From Ianthella basta (Eukaryota > Porifera > Demospongiae > Verongiida > Ianthellidae), in the NCBI GenBank assembly GCA_964019415.1, contig OZ025881.1:1699280-1763279 (forward strand): DNA of 64,000 nt. Reading direction: 5' to 3'. Below the pieces are notes generated by a model. The model was not told where the DNA came from, ran no database searches, and saw only the letters and a program-made list of their open reading frames with translations. Every line of letters begins with the position of its first letter. The stretch's first letter is position 1. This document shows, piece by piece, positions 1-16,120 of this stretch. Both the position numbers and the translations under genes were made by a program.

Positions 1-1036
<1,036 letters not shown>

Positions 1037-2061
1037 AATGTATTGCGTATATAGAATAAGGGGGATAGAATGAACCGTGACAACCGTGACTGTTTTAGGC
1101 ATGTGATGTCAGAAAAACGGAAAACGCTGGAAGGGATTCCGCTTGCCACTTCGTTTCGTCATATATCTATGGTTTCGTTCACAACAGGATGAGGTAAGCT
1201 TAATGCTCTTTCAAACACTTTGCCTGCATGGCTTTGCACTAGCATGTACTTTTCAACAGTTGCATGACTACTTCATTTCAGATACGTAGGCCTATCAGAG
1301 AGTACGATAGTACTTACTCTCTATGTAGGGATGGTACAGGGTGTTTCAAATTCACAATACATTGGCATAGGGACGAAATCGCGAAAAGCGTCGAAAACCG
1401 CCAAAACGAGGCTTCGTAGGGCTAAATACGAAATATTCATACACTAAACTGACCTGGAAGGCAAGCGAACGTGGTCTGTCAGCGAGAAAATGACACTCGA
1501 AAACATCCATTTTCGTCTTCATAATTCTTCTTCATATTCTTCTTCGCCAGCTGTAACTGACGAACAGAATTAGCTATCGAACTAATTCGAAAACGAACCT
1601 ACTGCAAATTAACCGAACTGTATTCTTTCGAAGTATAGGGTCCGAAAGCGTATTGTTCACACACTGGGGTTACCGAGTCTTTCGGGAGACGTTGCTACGC
1701 GCAAGACGCCATTTTATGATGACGTTGAGGAACGGCAGTTTTCCGCCTACTGTTCCTTCAGTTTCTGTCCAAAAGCCAGCCAACACCGTCAGGAGGACGT
1801 TTGAGGTGTATACGAGAAAAGGGCTTAGGCCGAAGTTAGCTAGCGAATAGTTTCAAAAGGTCATCCGTGGACGTGCGTATCCCGCCATTTTTAATTAGTA
1901 CTCGGCTAACTTCCGGTAACTGTTTCTAAGCTCTTAGGTGGGCTGGCGCGGAAGCTAGGAGATAGCTGACACCTCGAGCTCCAGGATTAAAGAAATAAGG
2001 TCCTATACTGTAACCTGCATGGATGTCCTCTAGTGGCACTTAGCATGTGCAGCTTGCACAC
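1037..2061. other. Intergenic, no recognised feature
   Basis: About 1 kb upstream of the kinase-HOIP gene. Similarity to the 5' flank of intact RPUSD2 ends near 1036. A 65-codon open frame at 1653-1850 has no recognisable motif and no splice context, and I do not call it a gene. Confidence 0.5.
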
Positions 2062-2345
2062 CATAAAAAGTACAGAAACTAGAAATAATAAATATTTTCT
2101 ACAAAAATAGCAAGGATGTAGGGATGGCACAAAAAGTACAGAAACAAGTAAAGGCTGTTACACAATGGAGCATTAACCATCATCCCTACATTCAAGGGTG
2201 TAGGACTATAAGGTGCGACATTCTTGCATGTAGGGACCATGGTTAATGCTCCACTGTGTAACAGCCTTTACTTGATTCTGTACTTTTTGTGCCATCCCTA
2301 CATCCTTGCTATTTTTGTAGAAAATTTTTATTATTTCTATTATAT
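2062..2345. mobile_element. MITE-like foldback element, about 130-bp arms
   Basis: The left arm (from about 2080) and right arm (to about 2345) are reverse complements over roughly 130 bp with few mismatches. Both arms carry TGTAGGGATGGCACAAAAAG next to a CTACAAAAATAGCAAGG block. One arm end recurs at about 55540-55570, so this is a dispersed family. It lies 150 bp upstream of the kinase-HOIP start codon. Confidence 0.8.
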
Positions 2346-2495
2346 GTAACTTTGATGCGAACGGCATAGCAACAAAAATGTTTTAGCTGTATAGGGGCTC
2401 TACTTTCTTGGTCACTTTCTCCATGCAGGGCACTCTAGTCCCTCTTTATCACAATCAGCCACCTTATTTACTCGCCGCAGAGGCGTGCTTACGTG

Positions 2496-5400
2496 ATGAA
2501 TCCTTCCCTTTTCGGGCTGAAGCACGAGTTCGGTGCCCTCGCACTCTCCGATCGCGACGTAAAGGAAACGGGAAAGGAGCTGGGAAGGGGATCCTATGGG
2601 GAGGTGAAGGAGGCCCACTGGCTTGGGACACCATGCGCCATAAAGAGAGTGCACCCCGTGCTAGTGCCGCAGTTGGGCGCAGTGGAGGACAACAAGGTGT
2701 CTCGAGACTTTGTCCAAGAGTGCCGAGCATGGAAAGACCTGCGACATCCCCACATCGTGCAGCTGCTGGGCGTCGTTTTCGAGGAGGCATCTCCCCTCCC
2801 CGTGCTGGTGATGGAGCGTCTGAGCACCAGCCTCCGGCGGTTCTTGGAGGAACACAGCAAGGAAGAGTTCCCTCTTGATAGAAAGGTCTCCGTCCTGTAT
2901 CAGGTGGCTTTGGGCCTAGTCTACCTCCACAGCCAGAAGCACATTCACCGTGATTTCTCCACCAACAACATCCTCCTTGAAACGGACAGTTGGAAGGCAA
3001 AGATCACTGACTTTGGAGTCAGTCGTGTGCTTGATTCAACTAAAAGTCGAATGACTGGCACACTTGTTCCAGGTGGGTGTGGGTGGGTACATGTGTGTGT
3101 GTGCAAGTGTGGGTGAGTGTGTGTGTGTATGTGTTTTTGTGTGTGTGCATGTGTGCGTGTGTGCATGCATTTGTATTTGTACTTGCTTGTACACACACAC
3201 AATCGGTTTTGTTGGGTTGTCTTAAATCAAACTGACCAATTAATCAAACACACTGCACCGTGATTTTGCCAGTAAGTTTGTTATTGGGTATGATTCAGTT
3301 TTATCTGTCAGTCTGTACATTTTAGGGACCGCCAACCGTAGATTGACAGTGTTCTGTCCAGCATTATCCACTTCCTGCCATTGTTTTTCTACCACCTTCC
3401 TGTCTATTTCGTATAGTATTGTTGGGCCTATTTCAGTGATTCTGTTCTAGTTTCGCTAGCCAGACCACTATCTCAAATTTTGTTTATTGACATAATCAAA
3501 TAAAAATGAAGAGGAGGTAGCAGTCTGGCTAGCGAGACTAATGTTCATGTATGCATCACACATCAATACTAACATTTGCGGTATTTGTGTTTACCAAAAT
3601 GATGACCTCATACATCAAAGAGACCGCCAGTGCAGTATTCAGATACTGCACTGCAGTAACCAAGTAAGTGCCTCCAACACTTCCTTATCACCTAAATTGT
3701 GGTCAACCAACACCTCCGTAAGGTAAACAAAGAGTGGAAAGGTCAGGAGAATCAATTTAGCCATGAAGTTTCATGTACCAACTTCTGGAAAAGTGGGTAG
3801 CTCATGAAAGAGGAGTGCGCACATGTACACGCTTTTCCCAAGAATGCATTTACTCCTGGGAAATGAGTCGACGCGCAATTGGCACCAATACACCGCAATT
3901 ATTGCTCACTGCTTTGCTTCTGTTGTGGGCTGAGCCAAGTTTTCCAAGCATGTGCAATCCAGCTGAGCCAAAGCAAAGCGCCAAAGCCTTCATGACATCT
4001 CCCGGTATTCGTGCGTCACTCATGTCGTTGGGTACTGCGGCCACAGATCTGCGCGTGCACTGAATGTTCCTGGTCTGAGAGTGTGCAGGAACAGAAGTCG
4101 GCGACACCGTTGCATAGCACTCAAAAGTACTACTAGGGTGGCGTGGAGAGGATACGAAGCGACTTCAGCCTTGTCCTACGGCGAGATTACCACCAGTTCC
4201 AATGCAGCTCCCCAGCAAGATGCACTAAAATTCAAATTACGGGCGCTTATTTTTGATAAATCACTTACTCCATGCCTTCCATGGCGTACGGCATATTTAC
4301 TGCACTCGCCCTTGGGTCTCGTGCAGTAATTGCCGCATGCCATCGAAGGTGTGTAGTAACTACTACTTAATGTCTCCTATAGGCACTCAAGCCTTCATGC
4401 CTCCCGAGATGTTTGAGGACCCCGCTCGGTTCAGTGACAAGGTAGATGTGTTTTCATTTGGGTGCATCATCATCAGCACCCTCACGCACCGATGGCCAGA
4501 GCCAGGCCCTGCCAAGCGCCAAGTTGCAGGGAAACTGGTAGCCCTGACTGAATATCAACGCCGGGAGAAGTTCTTTGCACTGTTGACTCCACAAGAGAAG
4601 GATCTGTTTCTGAGACTCACTGAATGGTGTCTACAAGAGGCCCCCTCCAGGCGCCCCTTCTCTCGTGATGTAGTGGAAAATCTTGTCCGGATTACAACGA
4701 AAATGGGGAAGGCCTCTACAGGAGGAACTGTGAGGAGTTACTGTATATATGTAGGTGGTTATATCTGTATTCTTTACTGATGGGTAATGTATACCGTGGA
4801 ACCCCTATAAAGCGGACATCCTTTGGAACATGAAAAATGTCCTGATTATAGGGGTGTCCACATTTCAGAGATATGGTATCTCCCCATATATATACTAAAA
4901 CAATCATGTAGTATGCATGAACAGACAAATTCATAAAGGTAGTCTGGAGGTGGTTCACTCAGTACCATACGCACACGTTTCTAAAGACAACTTCAAAGAC
5001 TGCATGTGTGCATGGAGTTCACACACTACAGTTTGGCAAACCTTAGTATACACGATTTATGGCACTCACCAATTTCTGTGCTACTTCTGTCTCTTGTCCA
5101 AAGTAGCGGTACGAACAGTGAACAGCCATTTTCTGGCAGCTACGTATTTGATCTGTCTGGATTATTGGGTACTTTATACAGTGTTGCATTGGCCGGTGCA
5201 CCAGCCACTGTCTGCAATACAGATTTACGTGGTTTCCTCATTTCAGTGGGAAGTTTATATTGCTATAGAATAGGACAAATCATTGCATGGGACTGTAAAG
5301 TGTCTGCATAATCGAGGTGTCCGGTTTTCAGGAGGTTGGGGGGAGAGCGACTGCCCCAGCCTCTTTGGCACTATGTATATCAGTGCTGCAGGCTTGTTAC

Positions 5401-8400
5401 GTATGTACTGTAGGTGTGGTAAGTCCAGCAATTATGCAGCCATGATTTTAGCTACCAGCAAAACTTGTGCTTAGGTTTTATGTTTTGGATGCCCAACAGG
5501 TGTATAATTAATCTTACATGGCAACCACCAAACTGCATGGTGACGGTTGTGTATAAAGTAGATGGAAATAAGCTAATGCAAGGATCCAACTAGTCTCATA
5601 CCAAGACCACTTTCTCATCTCCATTTTTATATGATGATGTCATCGGGCATGGCGTCACCAGTAAATGGCCGGCAGACGGGTGGGGTCTAGGTACGAGACT
5701 TCTTAATTGCTATGAATATCTTTGTTTGCCAAGGTAATTGCATATTAATGAGCCAAAAACAGTATAGGATGTTCACCTGTTCACCAACAAATGAAGTCTC
5801 AACTTAAAGTGGGTGGCAGGCGTGGGTCTGCTACCTGCTGTGTCCTTATAAATTGCATCAAATATGCTATCCTTCAGCTGCCTATTTATAATCCTGGGGT
5901 CTCTGTTCGCTCTTATATGGAATTTCTTGTTCTGTGTATCTGTATAACAGCTTTCAGAGCTACGGAAGGCAAATGCCCGTGTACTAGAGGCAGAGAAAGG
6001 CAAGGCCGATGCTGAAGCTGAGAAGATGATCCTGGAAGCAAGGGTGAGAGCAGCTGATAAGGCATTGCAGGAGGAAAAATTACACAAGCAACTCCTCCAA
6101 ATTGAAGCCCAGAGCTGCAAGGACAAAGCCAAAGAAATTCAGAAAAGAATTGAAGCGGAGAAGGCACACCTCTCTGAGCAACTAGCTGAGCTATGCATGA
6201 AGGAAGGAGCAGCTAGGCTGGAAATGCAGAAGATGGAAGGGGAGAGGACGGCACTGAAGGCGAAGGTTGCTTCCTTGGAAGCTGAAGTAGTAAGGGGTCA
6301 GGAGCACGTGTCCTCTCTTGAGCAGCAGCTGAGCCGTGTCAGGGGACAGCAGCAGATGGTGGTTGATATACCAAAGGCAGAGACCATACATAGGTTTAAG
6401 GCAAGTCTAACCATGGATAGCATAGAGACTCATTGCTACGTGTGTAGCTATGGCCACAGATCAGTGGTATGGCTTTTGAGCTGGATTCATGTAGCAAAAC
6501 TGCTATGAGTCAGGACGTTTTGGTCATGTAGTCCTTCATTAGCTGATAAAAGCCTATGTGCCCATAACATCCTGATCCATTGCAAGTCTGCAGTGTGAAT
6601 CCAGCTTGAAATGTCTAAACATACTGTATACAGACTTCATTGTAGGATAGTTGTATATCAATAGTGTTTTGGCAGTGTGGTGCACTGTAGCTGGCTGGGC
6701 TCTCACACCCAATGTGCATGGGGCTACACTGTGAAGTTGACTTAGTCTAGTCTAACGCACACTTCTATCTCTCAGTACTAGCACCCAAGTCAGGCTATGT
6801 ATATTGTCAGAATATAATGAGGTCATACGTACAGTATGTACATAACATTATATTAAGCTCTCTAATCCACTTTCCACATCCTATTTGTTGCAGGAATTCA
6901 CGAAAGTTGATTATGGGGCAGAGGATGATTTGGAGTCCTTGAGTGACTATATTGTGGTTGATCCCCAAGTCTATCGTGAGTTGAAGGAAAAGGCAAGGAA
7001 GGAGCCTGAGCAGCAGAAGGCCAAAAGGGGGAAAGCTGAAGATATTGATAGAATGAAAGAACAATGGGAAAGGCAATACGAAGAGGAGAGGATAAAATCA
7101 ATAATCACTGAAAGGGGTGCTCTGCAGCGCAAGAACGAAATTGAGGCAAAGAGACAAGAACTGAAAGACAGTGGGGAATTTTTCATGCACTGGTTGAAGG
7201 CAAGTTGCTGCACACACAGTCTGCATTGTGGAATATGCATTAATACACCTACTTACTGTACATACATTACATTGCATGCTACTTTACATCAGTGATACAG
7301 TGTAGCTGGACACCATTCACTGGATGGCACTATGATGTGAAGTACTTGCAGTACATAGACTAGTGTATGGTTCGTTTCTTTCTGTCAGTACTAAGGCACG
7401 CAATATTGTTAGTATGGTCAGGTTGTACAATGCTTTAAGCTCTCTAATCTACTTATCATACGTATTTGTTGCAGGAGGCCACAAAGATTGGCTATAAACG
7501 AGAAGAGGTGGAATTCGCTGTTCACCACTATGATGAGTATGAAGGTAAATACAAAACTCCACTGGACTTTCTTCATTCAGAGTGGCATGAGCGAAAGAGG
7601 GTCATTCGGGCACACATTGGGCGATATGTTGAGGAGAGAGGCATGCAAGATGTTGGCATGCCTTCTTTGATTGAAGCAAGGGACTGCCTGGTGGAAAGTG
7701 GAGGGAGCATGAAAGAAGCCATTGCCCTGTGTGCTCGGAGAAGGGAGAAGAAGGTGAGCAACATTTTCCTTAGCCACAGCAATGCATTGTTCTGCTCTCA
7801 ACTAACCCCCTTGAGCAATGGGCCATGTCCACATTGTAGCAATGTGTAGGAGCATTGGTAGTACTTTAAGACCTCATGATGCTATAATATACTTGCACAT
7901 GAAAAAATGTGTGAGAAGGACTTTACTGAGTGTATGTGTTCTCCCCTGCATGTCTGGACTCTATAGATCTGTGAGCTGCTTAGGCGCTACCCTACAAACC
8001 GCAAAGAGGCAGCGAGGGTCCTTACTGCCTTCAAGCTGAATGTGGATGTGGCTGTACGTGAACTGGCAAAGGAGAGCCTGACAGGATTCACCTCAGTAGA
8101 CCAAAGGCATACACGACGTATGAAGATGGACAAACTGGAGGAAAAGGTCAAGCAGAAGAAGGATGTAGACAATGATGTAAGCAGTGGCTAAGAATACATT
8201 GTGCATGCATATTGTATTTGGATCCTGTGGTAGTCATGATTGATGGCTTGGAATTGGTTTCTTCTTAGTTCTGTCACCGTTTGTTGATGGCTGAATTCAA
8301 CCTAGATGACTGGGACAATGCCTCTCTGGTTCTTGAGTTAATGGACAAGGGCATTGAGTTCAACATCTGTCTGAAAGTGGCCAAGAACTGCCGCAGCATG

Positions 8401-11400
8401 GAAGACACAGAGAGGTTTATGAACCAGGAATGCCCTGTTTGCATGGATGAATTTCTCATGGATGAGGTTGGTTGTTGTATTCAGTCACTCAACTGTTAAT
8501 CTCTGTTCACTTGGACAGAGCAGTGCATGTCGCTGAATGTCAGTGCACGGACACTCTTTTCACATGTTACCTTGCACAGATGGTTGCCATGGTTCACTGT
8601 GAGTGCTTTGTGTGCAAGGACTGCTTTTCGACTCACTACACCATGATGGCACGTGAGAAGGGCATCTTTCAGCTCAACTGCCTCATTTGTGCTCAGCCAG
8701 ATCTAGCAAACACCGACATTGACCAGGACGACTACCTCATGCTGTTTGCAGGCTTGTTGAAGGAGCATGTGTATTTTGAATATTACCAGATCTTCCAGAA
8801 GAAGACCGCAGAGTTTGCACTCCAAAAGGATCCCGACTTTCGCTGGTGTGCACATGTGAGTATATACAGTATTCATGCACAACGGCCTGGTGCCAATGCT
8901 CAGATGCTATTGAGGATGCATCAGATCACGACTTACCACAGTGATGCATGGCTGGGTCAACGAGCTGATAGCCCAGTAGCTACATAGCTATAGCTAGCTA
9001 TCTCTGAGTCCTTTCCATAGCCTCATTGTCGCCAGTTAGGCAATGTATTGGGGAGAATGTGGATCTGTCATAGCGAGTATGACATACATATTGTACGTAT
9101 ATTACATGGTCCTGGTGAGAGCATGGCAAAGGCCCTTTGTCCCAAAGTTACATCCGTCTGATTCCACATGACACTATGCACATCTTTTTAGGGTAGGTCT
9201 CAGTGTGCTTCCAACCCCACACTTGTGTTTAACAATGCATGCCTTAATTGCACTTTTGCCATCACACCCCAGCTGCCACATAGCAGGCAATGCTATCTAC
9301 TGCACTTGGCTCCACATGGTTTATGCCTGTCAAAATTGGGATTCTGCTGACGTCTCACACACTTCCACTAGCTGCCATTTGCTCACTAGTGAGGCTTCTG
9401 GCTTGGCTTACAACTAGTTTTAGTTGGTACTTTCATCCATTTACAAATCCTGACAACAATATTTCGTAACACACCCACACTGCTAATGTATTAAAACACT
9501 GTAGATGCTGCCTATGTATGTTTCACAAGCATACTGAGAAGCGGTTAGGCAGCCACCTCTCTAAAACAGCCAGCCTCCTGGCCCCAGCTACTGTATCACT
9601 AAAACATTGCTATCTACTTCTGTAGGGCAGCCATCTCTCTATGAATGTAAGTTAGAACTGGCCCACACGTGACTGTCTTAGACAGGCTCCACTTTACAAG
9701 CCACTGCATAGCGCTGTGCTTGCACCTCTTGACAAGTGTGTGAAAGTAGCCCAAGTTTAACAACTTTCTTTCTCTAACAGACTGAGTGTGGAGATGGGTT
9801 CATCCATCACCCTCCCCTGAACAAAGTCATCACTTGCCCGTACTGCCAGAACAAAATGTGCTTTGACTGCAAGAAACCTGTGAGTGAAGCCCTGTTGTTA
9901 TATTGGCTGGCACAGCACATACAGTAAGCGTATATATGGATATAAGTGCACCCTTCTATCCACTTTTATTTCAGTGGGAAGGCCAACACAAAGGTATCTC
10001 ATGCAAAGACTTTGCAAGGTGGAGGGCAGAGAATGACAAGGAGAACCAACAAAGGGGTTTGGCAGCTTTCCTGAATGAAATTGGCTGTGGTGAGACCATA
10101 CATAGTTACGTATGTTTTACAATTTACTATATATGCAGATGTGAAACTTGCCAAGGGTGTCTATGTACTCAATGTTACAGTTTCTGGTGCAGCGAGAGAC
10201 AAAAAATGCTTTCTCCCCCTTCCCACTGTTGCAGAGTGCCCCAAATGTCACTGCCGCTATAGCCTTACTCGAGGAAACTGCTTGCACTTTAGATGTGTGA
10301 TGTGCTCCACTGACATTTGTGGAGGATGTGGTGCAGTTTATGACAAGGTACGTACAAAAGTACACAGGCATACTACAGAATTACCCTCTATCATAGTGTG
10401 GCACATTTGTCCACAAAGCAAGATTATGTATAGCAAGTTCAGCCCTAACGACACACAAGTTTCACCTACCATGAACGGGAATGATCCAGAATATCCAACA
10501 ATGAAACATAATAGGAAACAGCCGGTCACAGCAACACGCAGGAAGTGATCTGGCTGAGGTAGAGAATGTGGTATTCAGGTGCTTGCTCTTGCTATAGCAT
10601 CATGTTCTAGAAGCCAAGGGTACGCTGCACACTTAACTACTACCTTGTATACATAGGAAAGCTCTAGGCATGTAAATTGGTTCTTATGAGGGAAGGGGAA
10701 ACTGTGGATGCTTATGCCTGTCGCTAAATTAGGCCCACCGCAGAATGAAACAACGACTGTAATGGTTCCCTTCTGCTAAACCATCAACAACAGCACTTAC
10801 TGACTTTTGGATTCTTCATACACTTGTATGCAGATGCCTTGCTCAAGTTGGCACACTTTCTCATCCAGGGTAACAGATTTGTTTGTTGGTTGGACCGTAT
10901 CATCTAACAATGCATGGAGATGGGCAGTTTTGTTCAACTAATAAACAGTGGCATTCATACGTGCTATTAGCAAGTTGGTTATACCTATGAAGTGGTAGTG
11001 GATGTCATGACTCCAAAGAGGGCAGGAAGGGCAATTTTGAATGAAAAGCTAAATGGGAATTTGCACCAGCTGATATCAAATCCGGGAGCTATGATCAAAC
11101 ACGGAGTTTCAAGCACACAAGCCAACCGACTTGGCAGTGACAATTTTCCTTCATACCTTATATAGGCTAGTTCGGCACAATGAAAGGTTAGACTAACCTC
11201 ACAGACAAGCTGCTCGCAGACAGAAGGGGAATTGCTGGTAGAGTGGAACCATTGTGGCAGCCATTTTGTGCCATTTTGGCCCTAGCTGAGTAGATGTAGG
11301 GGCATTTTGCAGCATGACATGTCCAAATACGCATTTTCTTTCTACCTATCTTCAGTACTGCCGGAAGTACAAATCATGTGCAAACGCAGGCTCCCATGCC

Positions 11401-12765
11401 CACCACCCTCGTCACTGCCTGTTCTACTTGAGGGACTGGCCTGTGAAGAGGTTGCAGAAGATGCTGACAGACAAGAAAATTAAGTTTGATACAGAGGCTC
11501 CTGAAGCACAGTGGTCAGCTGTTTATGCAATGGGTGGGTATAAGGGTCAACTGGAGATGAAGTGTCGTATAATGCTGCAAAAGGAAATGGGGACAGAAAG
11601 AGTGGAAGAGGAATGTGGGGATTACTGCAAACAAGGACGTGGTGGTCTCTGCGAGTAAGTTAACTCACACAGGCAGAAAGCTGTTGTGTTATATAGCAAG
11701 CTAAGAGTGAAGATCTACAATATATAAAATGCATGTTATATCCTACAAGCTTGTGCAACCATTGTTGAAATTGCTTCGTGAATAAGACTAAATGCATCAA
11801 ATGTAAAGAATAGCAGTGGCAAGTGTGCTGTGTGTCACCGGATGTACTTACGTATACTTTACAAATGCCCCTTAAATTGCCTACATTTGTGCAAAGATCT
11901 AATGAATGATTACATTAATGCTGTTTCTATACTCAAGAGTGATGCTATTTGATCAGCCCACACCTGAGTGAGGGCATGCATGTGAAAGTTGTTCCAGCAC
12001 ATGATTAGCAGCATGATAGAATAGAGATTCATTACCACGACCGGATATTCATAAGAGGGGATTTGTTGAGCGTTAAACACGTGGCACACTTTTTTACCAA
12101 AAGGCAAAACGTTTCGGCCCCAAAAGGGCCTTCTTCAGTTGCACAAAAGTACAAAACAGAACATCTGGCACAGAGCGTCTCGAGCCGATTCCCTGCAAGG
12201 CACCGATTTTATGACTGAACAAACGTACATACAAACTGAGATCCAATGCATTATAAAACACTTGCAATATGTTATTTGTCCTCTTCAAACTCCTCAGGAA
12301 ACACTACAAGGAGTATTTGGTCTTTAAGATCAATGAAGCCTCAATCGACCCTGCTGATGAGATGGATGTTGACGAGCTGAAAGCAGTGATATTGAGGGAG
12401 GACAAACCAGTCCCTGCAAGAAGGGGAATGGCTGTACAGTACAAGGAGAGACTGAAGGAGGTGAGCAGGGAATGCTGCATGGTGCTTAAATGTATGAAAC
12501 ATATCTATTGAAAGTCACTACTCAAATGAAAGATAAGTGAAGTCTTTTGAGTCGTGACTTTCAATAAACCTGTTACAGCTACATCCATCTTACACGCTCC
12601 ATGTTTGTTGCACTACATATTTGAGATACATGTGTTGTCACACTGCGTTTTCTTCCCATGCACCCTTTTATCTAGTCTTCCCTTATACCCTCCTCACTCC
12701 CTCCCCATTCACAGCAAGTGAAGATGAACTTTCCTCTGGCGAACATTCTAGGAAGATTTAATTAA
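2496..12765 (+). CDS. RNF31: TKL-like kinase / coiled-coil / HOIP-type RBR E3 ligase fusion
   Basis: Fourteen exons join in phase: 2496-3072, 4383-4729, 5951-6400, 6894-7199, 7475-7753, 7967-8176, 8269-8466, 8580-8855, 9781-9879, 9975-10089, 10235-10347, 11356-11654, 12298-12460, 12715-12765 (about 1160 aa). Residues 1-308 are a kinase: GRGSYG loop 30-35, Lys50 in CAIK, HRDFSTNN 151-158, DFG 172-174, PPE 199-201. The HRD loop lacks the usual Lys, as in some TKL-like kinases. Residues 309-458 are charged coiled coil. Residues 561-723 resemble a UBA-type region. RING1 starts at ECPVCMDEF (about 777), then IBR, then RING2 with RGNCLHFRC (predicted catalytic Cys968, His970), then the LDD (GHHPRDCLFYLRDW-like block) and a C-terminus ending LANILGRFN. 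In HOIP this module makes linear (Met1) ubiquitin chains. The PUB and NZF fingers of animal HOIP are absent. An upstream 5' exon is possible (acceptor at 2480). RNF31 homology is confident; single-transcript fusion is inferred from phase and lack of an intervening stop or start. Confidence 0.85.
3448..3541. mobile_element. Short hairpin MITE in kinase intron
   Basis: The ends are inverted copies around TAGTCTCGCTAGCCAGAC; about 94 bp in the first intron of the kinase-HOIP gene. Related hairpins lie at 20246-20321 and 31777-31847. Confidence 0.6.
5593..5700. mobile_element. Short hairpin element
   Basis: Inverted ends (AGTCTCATACCAAGACC on the left, GGTCTAGGTACGAGACT on the right) enclose about 70 bp, in the intron between kinase and coiled-coil exons. 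Similar in build to the TAGTCTGGCTAGC hairpins but with different arms. Confidence 0.45.
12108..12138 (-). other. Hammerhead-like hairpin motif
   Basis: Minus strand reads CTGAAGAA, then a GGCCC/GGGCC stem, then GAAACG. This resembles the hammerhead core CUGANGA-stem-GAAA with one extra A before the stem. Located in an intron of the kinase-HOIP gene. Catalytic competence is doubtful. Confidence 0.4.
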
Positions 12766-13129
12766 TGAGCAACAATTAAATTGCCTCTATGGGTACTAGC
12801 TAGTTTTGCAAGATAAGTAGACTATATTGTGTATTCTTGTTTTGTTTACGTGTAAGGATGATGGAAAACTGATAGAACACAATTCTAATTAGTTGCCCAA
12901 TGTTGAATGATATCAAGCAATGTATACATACATGCATGTGTCTGTACCTTCACAAGTCGTGTACATGTATATACATGCTCATACATTTGCTACATAATGA
13001 ATTAATTATAATGGCTGGGACCAGTAATATATTGCAAGCTGCATGAGTATACAGACCTAGACTGTATGGTACAATACGTTCCTGAATGTATATATCAGTG
13101 AATATATCTCTGGTTGGCTGGTTGCATTG
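12766..13129. other. Convergent intergenic spacer
   Basis: AT-rich spacer between the kinase-HOIP stop codon and the RPUSD2 stop codon, which face each other. No AATAAA is evident immediately after either stop. Nothing else recognised. Confidence 0.5.
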
Positions 13130-16120
13130 TCATTCGGTGAAGTCTTCACTAGCCCAGTATGGCAGGTCTGTCCTGTACTCCCAGTTTGCACCCTGCATAG
13201 AATAACAATTAACACTTACAGTACTGTACATGACTCTGTTCATGTGTACATGTGCGTGTGTGTGCGTGTGTGCGTGCATGTGTGTATTTTATATGGGGAG
13301 CAGTCCACAGTTTAAGACATGCTCTCATGTCACAAACCAGCATGCGACAACCACTGAAATTACGCATCATCAATGTTTGCATGCAGAGAAGTTCACTAGT
13401 TTACCAGGTAATCTACAATCTTGTTGGTTGCTGCAAGTCGGTTTGTGATGTCAGAGCACATCAGATTCTCAGAAAGGGTTGGTTCTCTAATACCAGCTTC
13501 ACAACAGGGTTGAATCTTCGCCCTGAAGAAGACCAGAGCATCTGGTCGAAACGTCGGCAAGGTTTTCAACCCTGTTATGAAGCTGGTATTAGAGAACCAA
13601 CCCTTTCTGATGCCTGATCCAGCTGAGAACCCCTCACTTCACATCAGATACTGTATTGTGATTGGGTTGCACTGTGGGCTCCAACACTGCCAGGCCTATA
13701 GTTGCCCCATATAAATAGGCCTGGATGTGCCAGGCTACAGGTCAGTACCCTCTCACCTTATAGGACACAGCATGGAGGTACATGACTAGGTCCTTGGGCT
13801 CTGGGTCTGGTCTTCTGACAGCGCACTCAGTGCAGGACAGGTCTACTGTCCATGTTGGGGTGGGGTCGATTGTGCTCATTGGAGGGGTGGGGCCAGGTGT
13901 AGGGGTGGGGTCAGTAGTGGATGTAGGGGTGGGGTCGGTAGCAGGTGTAGGGGTGGGGTCAGTAGTGGATGTAGGGGTGGGGTCGGTAGCAGGTGTAGGG
14001 GTGGGGTCGGTAGCAGGTGTAGGGGTGGGATCGATTGTATTCTTTGGAGGGGTTGGGCCAGGTGTAGGGGTGGGGCCAGAAGTGGGTGTAGGGGTGGGGT
14101 CCGTAGCTAGTGTAGAGGCGGGGTCCGTAGCTGGTGTAGGGGTGGGGTCCGTAGCTGGTGTAGGGGCGGGGTCTGTAGCTGGTGTAGGGGCGGGGTCTGT
14201 AGCTGGTGTAGGGGCGGGGTCCGTAGCTGGTGTAGGGGCGGGGTCCGTAGCTGATGTAGGGGCGGGGTCTGTAGCTGGTGTAGGGGTGGTGACACTGGTA
14301 GGTATAGGGGCAGGTTCTACCTCAGTACTAATCTCACTGTCACTGTCTAACAAAGGCTGAACGGTCTTGATTTGTGGACCTGAACAATCAACTACTTGTC
14401 CTCTCCCAATGCCAGCTATCGCTGTCACTTCAAATCTGTTCTCAGCAGTACAATTGCGACAAGCCATCCCAGTGGAATCAGAATGGGAAGTCATGTTACA
14501 TGCATCTCTTGTCCCCACAACACGTTCCTTGGAATCTGCCAATGTATCAGCTGGCTTGTAGTCGGCCGTCACCTCCTGCACATAGCTTAGTTCACTACTG
14601 TAGTTCAGTGCTGTAATCTCCTGAATCACCTACAGAACAAACCAGTATGTATGACCCCTCCCCCCACACACACATACTTTCACAGAGTGGAAACAAAATA
14701 GGCACATGTGTACATACGTACATGCTTACACACATACATACAATGTCATACTATACTGGGCATCGTGTCAGTGCATTTTCTACTTCACACCTGTTCCATA
14801 TTTTCAGCCCCTTTCCCCAGGGTACCACATTTAGGCCCCCAAGCCTTGTTGTTATACAGTGGGTCATTTACAATGGGATAACCTGCAAAATGTTAGGAAA
14901 CGCGTACGTACATACGTTGACAAGTGAGAAACAATTGCATGCTGATAAGAATCAGATCGAGTGCAATTGTGCAATACCCTTTGCGTTGCTATGGTAACAC
15001 ACCTAACCACTGCAAGTGGACCCTTATCTGGTGCATCCTTCCAGTCCTGGGAACACCTGCAGGACCCAACCAGCACATACAAGCAGAGCTCTCAACAAGG
15101 TATACTCCTCAATGCCTACACCCTAATGTACAGTACATTAGCTGCTATGCGTGATACAGCGGGAGGGGTATGGTTGTGTTGTTGTTCAACAGTTGATCTG
15201 TGAATTGGCCCAAGAGGTACGTACCAGAGGAGTAACAGCACAGGCTGATGTTGCCAATGGAATGGGTGAGCCAGGAGGCACTAGCTAAACTCTCAAATAC
15301 AACGCTGACATGCACAGCACATACGTATCAAGCCTTCTTGCCTATCCCAATGTATGCACCTTTTAGGCTACTGTATATACCTTTTAATGCTACTATTGCA
15401 AAATAGTTGTCATAAATGTCATCTGACTCACTCACGATACACTAAACCTGCAGCTGGTTGTATACCAATACACAGTGCAGATAGCTACGTACATTCTCCA
15501 CTTACATGTGACAACACTTGATGTGCCGTTGTACGAGATCCTGGTGAAGAGTGTGCTACATGGCTTCCCGGCCGGGTCCACCTTACACACACCCAACCTC
15601 TTGCAAACCACCAGAATGGGCTCACTACACTCTACTGGAGTTCTGAGGTGTCAAGGGTAGGACAGGCCAGGGGTGTGAGGTTAAAGCTTTGAACTGCACA
15701 AACACACTGTGTGAGGCACGGGGAGGATAGTCCTAGCAAGTCCCACATTCACAGAACACAGTTTCACTACTGAACTGTTCTGTAAACACGAACCAAATCC
15801 ACTGTCATGCATGTGCTGAGATCATGCGAGACGACTGTACTTGGACTATCTCATAACAGTTTGAAAATGAATTTTTTATATGGACAACATACACACTGTC
15901 CTAACAAATGTCAAATTGCTGTCTTAACTGTACAAACAGTGCTATACTAACAGGTGCTGTGTATGAAATACTCTTCCTTATTTAGCAATGCTGAAATAAG
16001 ATAATGTAATAACAGAACAAGAACAAATCTGTATACAGTGATGATGTCAGACAGCGTGGTGTGTGTGTGTGTGTGTGTGTGGGTGTGAGTGTGTGTGGGT
16101 GTGTGGGGGTGTGTGGGTGT

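Follow-up and report, generated by a model that had tools for sequence, protein, structure and literature searches.

HOIP (RNF31) has a conserved catalytic core, generally studied in the setting of an adaptor-recruited complex in which HOIP is the ligase subunit. A comparison that includes Porifera describes RNF31 as widely conserved across metazoans (PMC12778051). In the demosponge Ianthella basta (assembly GCA_964019415.1; 209 Mb in 96 contigs), the gene considered here, copy C, places a protein kinase and a coiled-coil-like segment before the UBA pair, RING1-IBR-RING2 (RBR) and linear chain determining domain (LDD) of HOIP. It lies in a 64,000-nucleotide stretch of contig OZ025881.1, hereafter the window (C14:1699280-1763279), and two further HOIP copies, A and B, are found upstream of the window on the same contig and the same strand. 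Copy C is probably a real, lineage-specific chimeric gene; that both of its predicted enzymes are active is judged less likely than the existence of the chimeric gene itself. If the fusion is genuine, kinase and linear-ubiquitin signaling can merge in one chain, and a natural kinase-HOIP chimera beside an unfused HOIP would in effect test in vivo which N-terminal sequence the RBR-LDD requires. It would also exemplify the spread of a large kinase family via recombination inside introns.

The closest described system is human HOIP, represented by structures 5EDV, 6SC5 and 4LJO, in which the UBA pair, RING1-IBR-RING2 and LDD follow one another in the same order as in copy C. The two share the catalytic Cys, the His at the second residue after it, and the YLRDW motif. 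Copy C differs in its kinase and coiled-coil-like N-terminus, in having no PUB or NZF match, in a Gly-to-Asn replacement just ahead of the catalytic Cys, and in an Ala where human HOIP has T786. Copy A is 76.6% identical to copy C over the shared part (700 columns), but has a PUB and no kinase. The same holds for a related database HOIP, P0001 (50.3% identity over 682 columns), in which a PUB, scored at 30.9 bits and thus under the cut-off of 34.3, precedes the UBA pair. Insect LUBEL/RNF31 proteins (P0004 and P0005) resemble copy C in combining the HOIP UBA pair, RBR and LDD with no PUB match, but their long N-terminal parts are different and contain no kinase match. As PUB is present in the fish HOIP members seen and absent from these two insect members, loss of PUB alone is not unique to copy C. 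MAP3K1 and plant KEG, like copy C, hold a kinase and a ubiquitin ligase in one chain, although the ligase is RING-type and not a HOIP RBR-LDD. In the regulation of HOIP by STK4, a kinase acts directly on HOIP, but the two are separate proteins (PMC12441119).

No kinase-HOIP fusion was found in the literature searched, a non-exhaustive set with few subscription papers. A database search with the HOIP part returned five proteins, none with a kinase domain. With the kinase part (7992 candidates scored, some Pfam lists shortened), no HOIP domains were found among the 120 matches listed of 186. Neither search can establish absence. One sponge protein, a Dysidea avara kinase, was among the kinase matches listed, and named matches from other groups scored better. 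Querying the database with an alignment gave no match, not even to P0001, itself a member of that alignment, and is uninformative.

Composition of copy C

Copy C is modeled as 14 exons on the + strand, from the ATG at window position 2496 to the TAA at 12765, encoding 1160 amino acids with no internal stop. The exons lie where the earlier note on this DNA had placed them, and frame is kept at every junction to the stop; 11 of the 13 introns are GT-AG and two are GC-AG. Exon 1 (2496-3072) contains the start codon and the kinase domain up to the HRD and DFG motifs. The preceding bases (2429-2495), which follow an acceptor, CAG/G, are probably the 5' untranslated part of this exon. Similar sequence stands before ATGAATCC in copy B and in kinase paralogs on contig C5, and an exact-match search located this start with a similar leader at five of nine paralog loci. 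Exon 2 (4383-4729) holds the remaining kinase domain and ends in phase 0 at the donor ACT/GTGAGG. Exon 3 (5951-6400), coiled-coil-like and on the kinase side, is absent from copy A and ends in a GC donor, AAG/GCAAGT. After intron 3 (6401-6893) comes exon 4 (6894-7199), a HOIP exon that resembles copy A and is absent from copy B, and exons 5 and 6 (7475-7753 and 7967-8176) encode the HOIP UBA pair. RING1 and the beginning of the IBR occupy exons 7-9 (8269-8466, 8580-8855 and 9781-9879). Exons 10 and 11 (9975-10089 and 10235-10347) supply the end of the IBR and RING2, including the catalytic Cys in TRGNCLHF, and exons 12-14 (11356-11654, 12298-12460 and 12715-12765) the LDD and the stop. An ATTAAA 10 nt past the stop is a weak signal, with 0.7 expected in 300 nt. 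The donor AAG/GCAAGT opens two consecutive GC-AG introns (at 6401 and 7200) and is also the donor of copy A intron 4 and copy B intron 3.

The kinase of copy C is matched in Pfam at 9.1e-40 (PF07714, 137 bits; PF00069, 131.6 bits), and exon 1 displays a glycine loop, GRGSYGEV, the HRD motif in HIHRDFSTNNIL, and ITDFG. In the ligase part, Pfam assigns the HOIP UBA pair (UBA_HOIP, PF16678) at 76.6 bits against a cut-off of 22.4 (2.6e-21), the IBR at 7.8e-11, and the LDD (PF18091) at 74.8 bits against a cut-off of 23 (5.8e-21). The best PDB matches of the C-terminal half are human RNF31 RBR-LDD structures (4e-82). The alignment to 5EDV, covering residues 318-696 of the 702-residue part, includes RING1-IBR-RING2 with the catalytic Cys. 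The Pfam scan of copy C gave no match to PUB, and no NZF or zinc fingers were found before the UBA pair in copy C, in P0001 or in the scanned 479-residue piece of copy A. PUB was not treated as defining for HOIP because the insect members are also without it, nor was NZF, because it is also not found in P0001. By the sequence of its UBA pair, RBR and LDD, copy C is a HOIP-family ligase with a new N-terminal architecture, and it is predicted to form Met1-linked chains.

The comparison in the earlier note to RIPK signaling and LUBAC in one polypeptide finds no footing on the kinase side: no RIPK appears among the 60 PDB matches listed of 2596, and Pfam detects no RHIM or death domain. Some RIPKs, such as the ankyrin-bearing ones, are themselves without a RHIM or death domain.

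Copies A and C retain all 32 Cys/His columns that are invariant in P0001, P0002, P0003 and P0005, a count that leaves out columns gapped in both copies. In HOIP numbering, the conserved catalytic Cys and His and the YLRDW motif include C885, H887, R935 and D936. Among 115 columns invariant in five database HOIPs, copy C alone deviates at five, two of them at the ragged start and another being the Gly-to-Asn change next to the catalytic Cys, and copy A alone at one. At the T786 position, copy C has Ala, whereas Thr is found in copy A, P0001 and two fish, and Arg in two insects (numbering of T786, V789 and L790 from PMC12441119 and the alignment). That study reports that STK4 phosphorylates T786 of human HOIP, which blocks allosteric ubiquitin binding and inhibits the ligase, and that the T786A mutation frees HOIP from STK4 but should also weaken its binding of allosteric ubiquitin (PMC12441119). 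The Ala of copy C is a suggestive difference and no proof of rewiring.

Upstream copies and the position of the joint

Copy A (about C14:1674.1-1687.2 kb) consists of a PUB exon, a linker, the UBA pair, RBR and LDD; a candidate first exon lies near 1666.6 kb (E 4.7e-4). Its PUB exon, 25 kb before the window, scored 34.8 bits in one scan and 30.8 in another, against a cut-off of 34.3, and no kinase exon was found between the PUB and the stop. A conventional PUB-containing HOIP is retained, and the fusion is an additional copy; the possibility that a kinase replaced the N-terminus of the sole HOIP is ruled out, as copy A still has its PUB. Copy B begins about 1.2 kb past the copy A stop and comprises kinase exons, the coiled-coil exon, HOIP exons 5 and 6 and part of exon 7, beyond which its 3' end is lost in exactly 5000 N that end at the window start. 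UBA_HOIP matches the genome at three places only, one in each copy; such family counts are lower bounds, given that an LDD search missed the LDD of copy A. Kinase exon 1 of copy B (L009 8420-8980) is 96-97% identical in protein to that of copy C, versus 83% for exon 2, and the last 31 codons compared show zero base differences. Gene conversion of this exon between B and C is possible.

The order of copy B, namely kinase, coiled-coil exon, intron 3 and HOIP exon 5, is that of copy C. This tandem copy and a chimeric intron favor the earlier note's proposal, a gene that unites a kinase with the catalytic half of HOIP, as the best reading, but the joint had been misplaced. The note set it at 4729/5951, where both ends are indeed in phase 0; this is weak evidence alone, since 10 of the 13 junctions are in phase 0. 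Copy A has no coiled-coil exon, relatives of that exon recur elsewhere, and intron 3 is chimeric, so the joint is assigned to intron 3 (6401-6893).

Copies B and C are 87.5% identical across 455 aligned columns of intron 3. When the halves of intron 3 from copy B or C were compared with HOIP intron 4 of copy A or C, with the best of 200 shuffles as threshold, the 3' half matched in four of four comparisons (scores 58, 50, 32 and 49 versus 23, 29, 24 and 31 for the shuffles) and the 5' half in none of four. The weakest of the 3' matches was C intron 3 to A intron 4, at 32 over a best shuffle of 24. Recombination therefore probably occurred inside intron 3 and placed a kinase-side exon ahead of HOIP exon 5.

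The body of copy C exon 4 and the intron that follows it resemble copy A, with 83.4% identity between A and C over 229 columns of intron 4. Of the first 30 bases of this exon, 23 coincide with the beginning of copy B exon 5 and 16 with that of copy C exon 5, and the acceptor end before exon 4 is 87.5% identical over 40 columns to that of intron 4. Exon 4 of copy C looks like the outcome of an exchange in which an A-like gene recombined with a B-like one and the frame was kept. In the proposed history, HOIP would have been duplicated in tandem, and a kinase-side gene with a terminal coiled-coil-like exon would have been joined by intron recombination to a HOIP duplicate shorn of its PUB-containing 5' exons. 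The chimera would then have been duplicated to give copies B and C, with C acquiring the copy-A-like exon 4.

Constraint, rival explanations and possible function

Both halves of copy C are constrained, as judged from codon comparisons. Over 686 codons of the HOIP part, nonsynonymous divergence (dN) between A and C is 0.134 and synonymous divergence (dS) 0.345 (dN/dS 0.39). None of these codons in copy C is a stop, whereas a neutral simulation of one branch, with substitutions only and dS split equally between branches, yielded a mean of 13.8 stops and was stop-free in none of 500 runs. The kinase gives a dN/dS of 0.37 between B and C (bootstrap 0.20-0.69), and kinase exon 1 compared with a C5 paralog gives dN 0.132 and dS 0.741 over 187 codons. 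Individual segments are less clear, both between B and C (exon 3, 0.61, interval 0.33-1.26; exon 6, 0.62, 0.26-1.71; part of exon 7, 0.81 over 28 codons) and between A and C (exon 6, 0.74, 0.38-1.58; exon 7, 0.62, 0.27-2.03; exon 8, 0.53, 0.26-1.12).

Several observations weigh against a single, working chimeric gene. Copy C has evolved faster than copy A, with 69 unique changes to 22 (chi-square 24.3). The Gly before the catalytic Cys that copy C replaces with Asn is present in copy A and in all five database HOIPs, and His replaces Asp in the LDD motif HHPRDC, where copy A, P0001 and two fish have Asp and two insects have Asn. PF22191, a second IBR model over the RING2 region, reaches 21.3 bits, below its cut-off of 27, and a simple heptad test gives no coiled-coil support for exon 3 (400 of 2000 shuffles as good). 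In copy B, kinase exon 1 as assembled is frameshifted by a 16-base deletion right after HRDFS. The joining of kinase and HOIP is predicted from genomic sequence. A kinase-free product could arise from an internal promoter or ATG in exon 3 or 4, and a HOIP-free one if exon 3 were read through to a stop at 6506-6508. An unfused parent with kinase and coiled-coil exon was not found at the loci examined: a C5 paralog (L029 and L061) has ankyrin exons and no coiled-coil exon within about 5 kb downstream, none was seen within 1.4 kb after a C3 kinase (L066), and the roughly 5.5 kb preceding each of four related coiled-coil exons (C13:6.62 Mb, C3:125 kb, C7:7.0 Mb and C3:6.77 Mb) yielded no kinase.

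Some of these points would fit a decaying or non-enzymatic duplicate, perhaps transcribed but with neither kinase nor ligase functional, the role of HOIP being left to copy A. The frameshift in copy B, the faster evolution of copy C and its Gly-to-Asn change at the active-site Cys all lean this way, as do individual segments whose dN/dS intervals span 1, among them exon 3 between B and C and exons 6, 7 and 8 between A and C. Decay is nonetheless unlikely, although it survives best among the rivals: the HOIP codons are free of the roughly 13.8 stops of a substitution-only simulation, the 32 compared Cys/His and YLRDW are retained, and the kinase keeps HRD and DFG with dN far under dS relative to the C5 paralog.

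Alternatively, a kinase gene, with or without the coiled-coil exon, could lie next to an N-terminally shortened HOIP transcribed from its own internal promoter. The earlier note had argued that the exon at 5951 opens with no start codon context of its own; this is partly right, but in-frame ATGs are present in exons 3 and 4, the first Met being residue 26 of exon 3. Frame agreement is easily met by chance when so many junctions are in phase 0, constraint on both halves is expected whether they are joined or separate, and the genomic basis of the joining leaves room for two genes. However, the kinase exons finish at donors and no terminal exon was identified for them, both HOIP copies B and C open with an acceptor, with no trace by tblastn of copy A's upstream exons at either, and intron 3, chimeric of both loci, is conserved as a unit in B and C. 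The absence of AATAAA and ATTAAA from introns 2 and 3 is a weaker argument, with 1.2 and 0.5 expected. Two separate genes are quite improbable on this evidence. Because the two halves lack these ends, the chimeric intron is conserved, and leader and start are shared, we infer one transcript over the kinase and HOIP halves.

A misjoin of alleles or neighboring loci, to which exactly 5000 N just before the window, inside copy B, and the closeness of B and C in kinase exon 1 (dS 0.087, with 31 identical codons) might point, is very hard to credit: positions 1-13000 of the window are free of N, the kinase-to-HOIP order occurs in two copies that differ in sequence and exon content, and the B-C segments other than exon 1 have dS values of 0.14-0.28, which is more than alleles usually show.

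If the chimeric gene is accepted, a mode of action can be proposed. The kinase and helical part would serve as a sensing and clustering module that recruits the ligase. Clustering would activate the kinase and position the HOIP UBA-RBR-LDD to build Met1 chains, and phosphorylation and linear ubiquitination would take place at one spot with no separate ligase recruitment. SPATA2 uses the PUB. A chimera without PUB could not dock OTULIN or SPATA2-CYLD through this domain, whose role in deubiquitinase docking is described in PMC4017264. A genome search for OTULIN gave no match, but its controls also gave nothing and the search is uninformative. Enzymatic activity, clustering and a biological role are thus attributed to copy C conditionally. 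The fullest version of the proposal, one animal protein chain that permanently couples an active kinase to an active Met1-specific ligase, free of PUB-bound deubiquitinases and of inhibition at the T786 site and acting as a self-contained switch without LUBAC recruitment, is tentative and has somewhat less than an even chance.

Relatives elsewhere in the genome and flanking repeats

Relatives of the kinase number at least 129 matches in the genome (128 of 925 candidates scored). The nearest ones outside the locus are seven C5 copies with 76-80% identity over exon 1. At one of them (L029 and L061, from C5:5433012 on), the kinase is followed by ankyrin-repeat exons, one matching PF00023 at 4.4e-12, which suggests a kinase-ankyrin gene. 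Relatives of the coiled-coil exon also recur elsewhere, most of those listed having a phase-0 acceptor like that of exon 3. Homology of exon 3 to the C-terminal coils of other kinases was rejected, as BLASTP against nine proteins (eight from C11 and one from C9) gave no match at E 1. A CARD-like exon stands upstream of the relative at C3:125 kb (L019 2201-2635, - strand), with PF16739 at 21.8 bits, under the cut-off of 28.2; the coiled-coil exon may be a shuffled module.

Repeats flank copy C. An inverted repeat at 2062-2357, with arms of 145 nt that are 89% complementary and 6 nt apart, lies nearly entirely within 1283-2348, a stretch with no match upstream of copy B, and is probably a small mobile element. 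Another at 13469-13610, with 46-nt arms that are 98% complementary, has similar translated sequence in L009 at about 5967-6260 and is perhaps a dispersed repeat. On the - strand, 13742-14629 is a Pro-Thr-repeat-rich open frame over a tandem array of 24, 48 and 72 bases.

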